This document shows positions 9,753 through 15,889 of a stretch of 23,506 nucleotides of DNA, piece by piece. The notes under the pieces are model-generated. The model saw only the letters and a list, made by a program, of their open reading frames with translations, was not told where the DNA came from and did no database searches. A program made the position numbers and the translations under genes. The DNA comes from Candidatus Poribacteria bacterium (GTDB taxonomy: Bacteria; Poribacteria; DTPJ01; WJIO01). The stretch's first letter is position 1. Each line of letters opens with the position of its first letter. The stretch is taken from NCBI GenBank assembly GCA_014730235.1, contig WJIO01000181.1, forward strand, positions 1 to 23,506, written 5' to 3'.

Positions 9753-10442
9753 TTATTCCAAATGCTTTATCTTACTCCATAAAGATGAAAGTATTTTATC
9801 TGAATCTACTGATAAATTGGAATCCAGATCAGGAATATTATCTCCCATTATAATAACATCATCGAACTCTATTTCAGCGCCGCAGCATCCAAGACCAATT
9901 TTTCCAGATGGTAGCATGTTGATCTTGTGAGATACTACCAATTCATCATCAATATAGAAAAGGTAATCAGTTCCTACTACTTCTGCTTTTAATTCATACC
10001 ATCTCCCCATTTCGATATCAGCAAAAGCCCAGTTTTCGTTGCCCCCTCCGTTTAAAACTCCTATACCTACAGTTACAGCGCCTAAAGATGGTCCAAATAC
10101 ATAATAGATATGATTGGTGCCTGGTTCAGATTGCATATGAATACCCAGCATAATTCTGGAAAATGAACCAGGTCTTAACTCTTGAAGCATTCTGGCTTTA
10201 CATGTAACCGTATAGTCTGTCCAGTTATCTTCTCCTATTGTAAGATAGCATATTGTTCTCTGAGCTGAGCCCATATAATGAAGAACTCCATTATTTACTG
10301 ACCATTCACCACACTGCATACCCGGTGTGCAGTTATGGGGTGACCAGCCATTGAAATCCCCATCATTAAAATCATCAATCAACAATCCTGACCAAACTGG
10401 CGTAACAAATAATATAAAAAACAGAATAAACGTAAATTTCAT
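9753..10442 (-). CDS. Secreted ConA-like (DUF1080/LamG-type) domain protein
   Basis: A 229-residue exported protein. Signal peptide MKFTFILFFILFVTPVWS (about 1-18), then one beta-sandwich domain (about 20-200) starting LLIDDFNDGDFNGW and including GEWSVNNGVLHYMG, DYTVTCKARML, HIYYVFGP, RWYELKAEVVG and SGKIGLGC. This resembles the 3-keto-disaccharide hydrolase/DUF1080 or LamG fold. The tail ends SSLWSKIKHLE, a motif shared with two other proteins here. Its domain is close in sequence, gap by gap, to the C-terminal half of the upstream sigma factor, so the two are paralogues. Its ATG overlaps the sigma stop (TAATG), implying coupled translation. It may bind or act on a glycan; no catalytic residues can be assigned. 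Confidence 0.82.
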   Translation of the reverse strand: MKFTFILFFILFVTPVWSGLLIDDFNDGDFNGWSPHNCTPGMQCGEWSVNNGVLHYMGSAQRTICYLTIGEDNWTDYTVTCKARMLQELRPGSFSRIMLGIHMQSEPGTNHIYYVFGPSLGAVTVGIGVLNGGGNENWAFADIEMGRWYELKAEVVGTDYLFYIDDELVVSHKINMLPSGKIGLGCCGAEIEFDDVIIMGDNIPDLDSNLSVDSDKILSSLWSKIKHLE

Positions 10443-11587
10443 TATTTCCTCCTTATCTTACCCCATGAAGAGAAAAATCTTCCTGTTATTGGAATAGGTT
10501 TATGTCCTATATCCGAATATTTCTCATCCATTAGCTCTATTTGCGCATTTTCCAATTCAATCTCAGCGCAGGCGCACCCAATGCCAAGTCTGCCAGATTT
10601 ATATTTCTGGATTTCATGCTCTACCACCAGATTATCATTTATGAAGAACCTGTGTTTACAGCCTATAACTTCAGCTTTCAATCTATACCATTTTTCCATT
10701 TCAAATTTAATAACTTCCCAATTTTCGTTGGAACCACCATTATTTTGAAATACACCAATACCGGCTGAATCTCCCCAAGGGGTTGGACCCATTACATAAT
10801 ATACATGCTCATTCCTTGGCATCTCTGTCATACGAACGCCAAATATAATCCTGGAAAACTTCCACATAGGTTTTAGCATCCGGGCATTACAGGTAATAGT
10901 GTAATCTCGCCATGAATTATCTCCTAATGTTAAATAGGAAATAGAGCGTTGTTTTGTACCACTATAATGTAATATCCCATCCTTGATAGACCATATACCT
11001 GTCCTAGCATCTGGAATACAGCTATATGGTATCCAGTTATAAATATTGTTATTCATTATTCTGAAGAACTCCTCTGTAAGCTGTACTCGCGCTCTGCTTA
11101 AACGCTTCCTTACCGCGACGGGAGATATATTAAGAAATTCTGCAATTTGGATACTATTCATTCCGCCAATGTAACGCAGCATTAAAACCTGACTTGATAT
11201 TTCTGACAGCGAATCCAGTGCTTCCTGAATAAATTCCTGCATCAAAGCTTCACGATACCTGTATACGGCCGTAGAGTACAGCTCTTTTGAAGATTGATCC
11301 TCTATATATCTGTTATCAAGGCGATTGGATTTATCCCGGAAGAAATTTTTACATGTATTTGTAGTGATAACATAAAGCCATGAAGAAAACTTGTCTTTTA
11401 TTTTTAAATCTGATAGATTTTTGTATGCTTTAGCAAAAACTTCTTGAGTAATATCCTCAGCATCATGAAAGTTACGAGTTTTTGAATAAGAAAGGGAATA
11501 AATTGAAGCTCTATATTTATTTACCAAAAAATCAAATGCTATTTTATCTCCGTTAAGACACTTCTCAATATAATATTTATCATTCAT
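10442..11587 (-). CDS. ECF-type RNA polymerase sigma factor fused to a ConA-like domain
   Basis: A 381-residue fusion. Region 2 (about 15-85) contains AFDFLVNKYRASIYSL, NFHDAEDITQEVFAKAYKNL and FSSWLYVITTNTCKNFFRD. Region 4 (about 120-172) has LSEISSQVLMLRYIGGMNSI and QIAEFLNISPVAVRKRLSRA. No linker or membrane helix follows; from about residue 180 the chain enters a domain like that of the next gene (NNNIYNWIPYS, GIWSIKDGILHYSG, DYTITCNARML, HVYYVMGP, KWYRLKAEVIG). The end reads FFSSWGKIRRK. The ATG at 11587 is preferred because AGGAGG (complement of 11598-11603) lies 10 nt upstream; an in-frame TTG at 11596 is too close to it. Ordinary ECF factors are about 180-200 residues, so the added half is unusual. 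It may sense a ligand directly; no anti-sigma gene is nearby. Confidence 0.88.
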   Translation of the reverse strand: MNDKYYIEKCLNGDKIAFDFLVNKYRASIYSLSYSKTRNFHDAEDITQEVFAKAYKNLSDLKIKDKFSSWLYVITTNTCKNFFRDKSNRLDNRYIEDQSSKELYSTAVYRYREALMQEFIQEALDSLSEISSQVLMLRYIGGMNSIQIAEFLNISPVAVRKRLSRARVQLTEEFFRIMNNNIYNWIPYSCIPDARTGIWSIKDGILHYSGTKQRSISYLTLGDNSWRDYTITCNARMLKPMWKFSRIIFGVRMTEMPRNEHVYYVMGPTPWGDSAGIGVFQNNGGSNENWEVIKFEMEKWYRLKAEVIGCKHRFFINDNLVVEHEIQKYKSGRLGIGCACAEIELENAQIELMDEKYSDIGHKPIPITGRFFSSWGKIRRK

Positions 11588-11651
11588 ATTAGGCAATCCT
11601 CCTATAGAAATATATTTAATCTAATGACACAGAAAAAGGTCAAAGTGTGAC

Positions 11652-11701
11652 ATTGATTTCTCATTTTTTTTATTTTAATAGTTAAAAATAGAGAAATCAA
11701 T
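11652..11701. promoter_or_regulatory. Inverted repeat, possible operator between sigma and nfeD genes
   Basis: ATTGATTTCTC (11652-11662) and GAGAAATCAAT (11691-11701) are a perfect 11-bp inverted repeat with a 28-nt AT-rich, partly self-complementary centre. It overlaps the putative sigma-gene promoter and touches the -35 box of the nfeD promoter, so a bound dimer could control both. Confidence 0.45.
11672..11700 (-). promoter_or_regulatory. Candidate promoter of the sigma-ConA operon
   Basis: Read on the minus strand: TTGATT (11695-11700), 17-nt spacer, TAAAAT (11672-11677). Matches are four of six and five of six to the sigma70 consensus. Its -35 directly abuts the -35 of the divergent promoter. 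The AT-richness makes a chance match possible. Confidence 0.42.
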
Positions 11702-15142: not shown

Positions 15143-15889
15143 ATGATTAAGAAAATTTCTATCAGCGTATTTATGATCTGTTTATCTATTTTTATGATTG
15201 TCAACACAGCTTCATCTCAGCAGGATGAATTCCTTGTAGGTTACTGGTCTTTTGATCAGGGGGAGGATGTGGTTGAAGACCAAAGCGGCAACGGAAATGA
15301 TGGAACTATTACCGGCGATGTAAACTGGATCGAAGGTAAATCCGGCACAGCCCTGGAATTTACAGCCGGTGCTAATGTTGAGATACCGGACTCTGATAGC
15401 CTGCGGGATATGGATGAATATACAATTGCCTTCTGGTTCAGACTTAACGAATTTGCCCCTGAATGGAATCATCTCTTTGAAAAGGATGGCTCTTATGGTA
15501 TAACAATAAATTCAGGTGCTGAGGATCTTCGTTTTACACCTAATTCTTCTAAAGTCTGGATCGAGAGCGGCGCCAAGGTAAAAACCGATATATGGTATTA
15601 TATAACCATGAAAACCGATGGAACATCTGTATATTTCTATGTTGACGGTAATGAAGAGACAAAATTTGATGAACCGGTTGTATTTACCAACAATTCAGTC
15701 AATATTGCACATGCAGCACCTTATACGGTAAATGGCGCTTATGACGAGGTGAAAATCTGGGCAAAGGCACTGACTGAGGATGAAATAAAAATAGCCATGA
15801 CCGGAGCTTCGCCCGTTTTGGCAACGGATCTTAGTTTTATTAGTCTTTGGTCGAAGATCAGGAATGCTACACTGGACACTGGACGCTAG
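15143..15889 (+). CDS. Secreted LamG/ConA-like domain protein with altered C-terminus
   Basis: A 248-residue exported protein. Signal peptide about 1-26 (MIKKISISVFMICLSIFMIV then NTASS). LamG core about 30-220: GYWSFDQGEDVVEDQSGNGN, GKSGTALEFTAG, EYTIAFWFRL, WYYITMKTDGTSVYFYVDGN, AYDEVKIWAKALTEDEI. Such jelly-roll domains bind carbohydrates or proteins. The tail FISLWSKIRN carries the same motif as the two ConA-like proteins at 9753-11587. The last residues (ATLDTGR) and the stop are encoded by the edge of the inverted-repeat element at 15868-16118, so the original end has been overwritten. GGGGGAG at 15129-15134 lies 8 nt before the ATG. Confidence 0.87.
   Translation: MIKKISISVFMICLSIFMIVNTASSQQDEFLVGYWSFDQGEDVVEDQSGNGNDGTITGDVNWIEGKSGTALEFTAGANVEIPDSDSLRDMDEYTIAFWFRLNEFAPEWNHLFEKDGSYGITINSGAEDLRFTPNSSKVWIESGAKVKTDIWYYITMKTDGTSVYFYVDGNEETKFDEPVVFTNNSVNIAHAAPYTVNGAYDEVKIWAKALTEDEIKIAMTGASPVLATDLSFISLWSKIRNATLDTGR

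Follow-up and report, generated by a model that had tools for sequence, protein, structure and literature searches.

A soluble poribacterial ECF sigma factor with a CBM66-like sandwich as a probable derived member of a one-piece ECF family

Background

How is a sigma factor governed when its chain runs on from region 4 into a carbohydrate-binding-type domain without a membrane helix in between? This question is raised by P0001, a gene in a 23,506-nucleotide stretch of DNA (the window, below) from a draft genome of Candidatus Poribacteria (5.53 Mb, 451 contigs). A sequence-only reading had described the product as an ECF sigma factor fused to a DUF1080/LamG-like sandwich, which could sense a sugar or a partner in the cytoplasm and control the factor in cis as a one-protein signalling system. 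By the analysis described here, P0001 is best explained as a soluble protein derived from within a family of one-piece ECF sigma factors in Poribacteria; its place in the sigma family, its lack of the juxtamembrane segment and transmembrane (TM) helix, and the paralogy of its sandwich with the adjacent gene P0002 are results of the analysis.

Results

The fusion gene

The ECF-ConA-like fusion proved to be real, with the sigma part and the sandwich found in a single frame by Pfam and AF2. The interval first given for the gene was correct (Table 1), but its strand had to be changed to minus, and the plus-strand frame over the same interval is closed by many stops. The 381 codons contain no stop or frameshift, the frame is open through the junction, and the GC contents of the two halves are alike (33.5% and 37.5%).

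Table 1. Features of P0001 and P0002 in the window
Feature	Position	Strand	Basis or remark
ecf-conA fusion gene P0001, 381 aa	10442..11587	(-)	ATG 11587, stop 10444-10442
AGGAGG ribosome-binding site for P0001	11598..11603	(-)	sequence
Promoter-like TGTCAC-N16-GTGTCA, poribacterial ECF type, 38-65 bases before P0001 start	11625..11652	(-)	motif comparison
Sigma-70 region 2, residues 21-87	11327..11527	(-)	Pfam PF04542, 58.7 bits
Sigma-70 region 4, residues 120-170; last helix to residue 180	11078..11230	(-)	Pfam PF08281, 46.3 bits; AF2
Fusion joint, residues 178-185, MNNNIYNW	11033..11056	(-)	end of ECF homology, start of sandwich
CBM66/PF06439-like concanavalin sandwich, residues 184-352, without the family's first strand	10532..11038	(-)	Pfam, AF2, fold match
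C-terminal tail RFFSSWGKIRRK	10445..10480	(-)	fits tag common to poribacterial secreted proteins
AGGAGG ribosome-binding site for P0002, within last fusion codons	10448..10453	(-)	sequence
P0002, secreted sandwich paralogue, signal peptide, 229 aa, about 45% identity	9753..10442	(-)	start overlaps fusion stop (TAATG)

With sigma2 and sigma4 and no sigma3, the N-terminal half is that of an ECF sigma-70 factor by Pfam, by TIGR02937 (sigma70-ECF; 84.9 bits vs 42.9), by the AF2 model and by structural matches to SigW and SigmaE; regions 2 and 4 are complete, as had been claimed, in their matches to Sigma70_r2 and Sigma70_r4_2. Of 47 positions that are strongly conserved in ECFs, 42 are kept in this half, and its only cysteines are at residues 10 and 79. 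In the AF2 model, which was computed from a domain-clean alignment of 53 rows, the block pLDDT of sigma2 and sigma4 is mostly 87-98.

At the joint, hydropathy and the joint alignment show that the juxtamembrane segment and TM helix of the relatives are absent. No hydrophobic segment was found in P0001, the best 19-residue Kyte-Doolittle mean being 0.54, as compared with 1.6-2.4 in TM-bearing relatives; thus the earlier description of a chain without membrane helix holds. A short, weakly modelled hinge is present at about residues 181-190 (AF2 block pLDDT about 59).

The C-terminal half matches PF06439 (3keto-disac_hyd, = DUF1080) over residues 196-343, but at 24.5 bits, below the gathering score of 26.8 that P0002 (39.9 bits) and P0004 (44.3) pass. 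Laminin_G_3 gave no match in Pfam, and the fold is CBM66-like. The best fold match is to the CBM66 of the B. subtilis levanase (4azz; Z 19.0, rmsd 2.3 A, 156 residues). This CBM66 is also picked up, at 4.5e-16, by a profile for the family of poribacterial sandwiches. The sandwich is predicted to fold well (block pLDDT mostly 76-94, with two weaker stretches), and the tail at residues 357-381 is of low confidence (pLDDT under 50). The pTM of the whole model is 0.56, so that there is no confident relative pose of sigma body and sandwich by which contacts with regions 2 or 4 could be judged.

The poribacterial one-piece ECF family

Poribacterial genomes each contain many ECF sigma factors with C-terminal extensions, the usual layout of which is a juxtamembrane segment, one TM helix and an extracytoplasmic domain. 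Matches to the sigma half of P0001 are present in 94 of 97 relatives, the best-scoring mostly in open frames of 600-1300 aa. In the genes sampled, a single hydrophobic helix lies about 40 residues after sigma4, the segment before it is conserved (type FDxxRLQxxFTFRVVEAIKxxK), and kelch, GH32-like, carboxypeptidase-regulatory or PKD domains lie beyond it. The sigma half of P0001 is nested within a clade of 21 rows (SH-aLRT 92; highest identity 49%), 18 of which have the helix about 40 residues past sigma4. The family's own mark, a juxtamembrane segment followed by a single TM helix, is missing from P0001. One-protein signalling, which the sequence-only reading proposed for P0001, is likely the rule in the phylum, but through a membrane helix that P0001 has lost.

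That the C-terminal tail can be exchanged at this point is indicated by two paralogues in one genome (L077 and L081 of G068). Their sigma halves are 85% identical over 195 aa and then run into unrelated C-termini, a TM in one and thioredoxin plus PD40 without TM in the other, at the same joint as in P0001.

Other arrangements were seen among these loci. A single open frame encodes an ECF sigma factor and, after it, a second Sigma70_r2 domain (L156 628-1761), and another combines an ECF sigma factor with SAICAR synthetase (PurC; L081 6029-7591). ECFs without TM are fused to S9 peptidase, ankyrin repeats or a winged-helix HTH (L163 2344-5151, L077 3727-6009, L153 2232-3497 and similar genes); several of them have KGExxM at the joint, which looks as if a former ribosome-binding site and start codon had come to be translated.

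The sandwich and its secreted paralogue

In the sandwich tree, the P0001 sandwich and P0002 are sisters (SH-aLRT 100). The P0001 copy begins at the second strand of the family, and the missing first strand is present in P0002 as modelled by AF2; in the last strand, P0001 has LEN..L in place of the FDD..G that is invariant in the family, and its DDF strand is gone. Pairwise comparison of the two sandwiches gives a dN of 0.46 and a dS of 1.75, the latter near saturation, and by this measure the sandwich is still constrained; the 45% identity, together with a dN/dS of about 0.26, argues for long maintenance after the duplication. P0001 has been the faster of the two, with a branch of 1.02 vs 0.25 for P0002, and Tajima tests all favour a faster P0001 sandwich, with values <0.05 in only 7 of 25. 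If each branch is given half of the synonymous change and P0001 four fifths of the protein change, the dN/dS on the P0001 branch is estimated at about 0.4, again with dS near saturation, and constraint there would be relaxed or redirected rather than absent. The faster evolution and the lost family-invariant residues also fit decay.

Upstream of P0001 lie divergent NfeD and SPFH genes and downstream a TRAP transporter. An anti-sigma gene had been reported missing, and indeed no anti-sigma or zf-HC2 domain was found in the ten neighbouring proteins scanned, nor an anti-sigma gene in the window. NCBIfam models gave no match to P0002.

An ECF-TM-kelch gene on contig C11 (L009 9107-11908) is directly followed by a secreted kelch paralogue, an arrangement that mirrors P0001-P0002. 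That the sensor is always paralogous to the secreted protein beside it was considered as a general rule and dropped, because among the sampled loci it holds for these two pairs only.

Many extracytoplasmic proteins of Poribacteria end in the motif KLATTWGx[IL]K, a candidate sorting signal that is shared by unrelated families (sandwich, LamG, kelch, esterase-like). Carriers include the genes at 9753-10442 and 15143-15889 of the window, L009, L010, L013-L015 and many other poribacterial loci; it is present in 52 of 136 signal-peptide-like genes, in a sample enriched for the sandwich family, vs 0.4 expected from shuffling. As proof that the sandwich was formerly a separate secreted gene the tag is weakened, since membrane-anchored ECF-kelch proteins of G080 have it too.

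Distribution

The exact fusion was not found in 83 other poribacterial genomes, nor did a scan for it as a single protein in 84,980 species genomes give a further case. Because it is known from one genome only, selection on the fusion itself is beyond measurement. An alignment scan retained the best 80 of 461 ECF relatives, and among these a match deep into the sandwich was seen only at two loci of the isolate UWMA-0232, where an ECF sigma factor is fused in frame to an entire secreted sandwich protein with its signal peptide (L116 517-1797, L150 2873-4210). An SD-like GGAGG and ATG lie within the L116 frame when it is read at base level, and the gene may yield a secreted product as well as the full-length one. 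These fusions are not orthologues of P0001: their sigma halves and sandwiches both fall in other clades, so that they arose independently. Absence of the fusion from all relatives had been named as grounds for doubting it, and the answer is divided, as the exact form was found only in this genome but an independent, signal-peptide-bearing form exists in UWMA-0232.

A promoter-like element of the ECF type

A search made without a prior found GCGTCA as the top six-mer, in 21/63 ECF upstream regions vs 21/618 others. Its refined form, TGnnAC-N15..17-GYGTCA, occurs in 9/63 vs 0/618, counts that are not independent because the pattern was refined on the set in which it was counted and the ECF genes are related. 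A five-mer search of six upstream regions of the P0001 genome gave nothing that exceeds shuffles. In the 5.53 Mb genome the exact TGTCAC-N16-GYGTCA has two occurrences, as compared with one for the reversed pattern used as a control. They lie ahead of P0001 and of a decayed ECF fragment on contig C279, as would be expected of an autoregulated ECF.

The C279 fragment (L249 3812-3723 of G000) lies behind an intact copy of the element. A similar palindromic repeat (CTCAGCTTGTCATTCCTGC...) occurs near it and before an ECF gene on contig C78.

Discussion

Proposed origin and action of P0001

The reading preferred here, to which we give about an even chance, is that P0001 is a soluble, autoregulated ECF sigma factor that arose by C-terminal exchange and drives both itself and its secreted homologue. 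Recombination or a deletion at the end of sigma4 would have replaced the juxtamembrane segment, TM helix and sensor by a tandem copy of a secreted CBM66-like gene, which probably entered the fusion without its signal peptide and first strand. The protein would still act as a sigma factor and could recognise the promoter of the family type that precedes P0001, a positive autoregulation; recognition of that promoter would mean that the P0001-P0002 operon is driven by P0001. With the tether lost, control of its activity would have passed to the cytoplasm, to the level of expression and to the sandwich, which may serve as a cis-acting cap or stability domain in the manner of soluble C-terminal extensions in other ECFs.

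The same locus could instead be a by-product, a deletion chimaera with an unregulated or unused sigma half and, as a passenger, a sandwich that is being lost. The restriction of the fusion to 1 of 84 genomes and the long branch with its lost invariant edge-strand residues fit such a history, as does the decayed ECF remnant with the same promoter, a sign that such genes die in this genome. However, the reading frame is intact over all 381 codons, a good ribosome-binding site, the operon overlap and the promoter element have been kept, the sandwich is predicted to fold, and 45% identity at a dN/dS of about 0.26 points to long maintenance after the duplication; we consider this account rather unlikely. 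That an assembly or sequencing artefact joins two genes is scarcely credible, even in a draft of 451 contigs, given the open frame, the similar GC, the TAATG coupling, the paralogy of the sandwich with the very next gene and the analogous independent fusions in UWMA-0232.

Quite unlikely, too, is the broader proposal of cis gating of the sigma factor by a carbohydrate-binding module that came from a secreted protein and now lies in the cytosol. A membrane-tethered one-piece sensor would in this way have become an intracellular switch that responds to a glycan or to a backlog of precursor and controls the adjacent secreted homologue. In its first form the sandwich would bind a cytoplasmic sugar and gate sigma2/sigma4. 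The CBM66-like fold points that way, CBM66 being a fructan-binding module, as do two TM-bearing paralogues in the same genome with GH32-like propellers, a fructan-enzyme fold, and the gating of ECF41 and ECF238 by soluble C-terminal domains (PMC8999054); but the sandwich is of a secreted lineage, has diverged rapidly and has lost edge-strand residues invariant in its family, and the AF2 model has no confident interface, which leaves sugar gating distinctly improbable. In its second form the cytosolic sandwich would bind unexported P0002 precursor, and the operon would read its own secretion backlog. Here the two paralogous sandwiches are translated from one overlapping operon, and a gene for a secreted kelch protein also comes after the ECF-kelch gene on C11, but the other sampled loci have no secreted homologue beside the sensor, and homotypic sensing of this kind seems very improbable.

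Relation to known systems

In SigI/RsgI of Clostridium thermocellum, the sensor modules resemble the secreted carbohydrate-active proteins under their control; unlike P0001, that system consists of two proteins, uses transmembrane proteolysis and does not involve ECF sigma factors. The CBM66 of Bacillus subtilis SacC and PF06439 are close to the P0001 sandwich in fold (Z 19), and CBM66 is picked up by the profile of the sandwich family (4.5e-16), but P0001 is without the first strand and the FDD..G motif.

Sigma factors with an extension are already a known kind, of which P0001 is a variant. ECF52 (SCO4117 of Streptomyces coelicolor) has a C-terminal extension with a TM and, at its end, an outside carbohydrate-binding domain (PMC8999054). 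P0001 similarly joins an ECF sigma factor to a carbohydrate-binding-type domain, but neither the zinc-finger anti-sigma part nor the TM helices of ECF52 were found in P0001 (Pfam, hydropathy), where the domain is predicted to be cytoplasmic. The soluble extensions of ECF41 and ECF238 act in cis (PMC8999054), and the ECF41/ECF42/ECF238 set (SnoaL, TPR, Cys-rich) shares with P0001 a soluble extension right after sigma4 and the lack of an anti-sigma gene, which makes it a candidate model for a cis cap; its domain folds are different, the SnoaL-like extension of ECF41 contrasting with the CBM66-like sandwich, and regulation in P0001 is putative. ECF57 has large beta-rich extensions of the WD40 type, such as also occur in poribacterial relatives, but P0001 does not have the conserved pair of Cys residues by which sigma2 and sigma4 are linked in ECF57. 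In IutY, the truncated form of which is active (PMC8999054), and in ECF243, sigma factor and membrane anti-sigma part form one chain; P0001, without TM, is comparable to a natural truncation that has gained a new tail. Neither a soluble ECF-CBM66-like chimaera nor the surrounding poribacterial series was found in the literature searched, a search whose scope excludes the main ECF classification and which does not establish absence.

Conclusions

The many one-piece ECFs of each poribacterial genome, with their exchangeable C-termini and shared promoter type, thus form a natural series in which to ask what is required of an extension that controls a sigma factor. Within this series P0001 is a natural experiment, in which the sigma half is the same, the tether is gone and the sandwich is inside.
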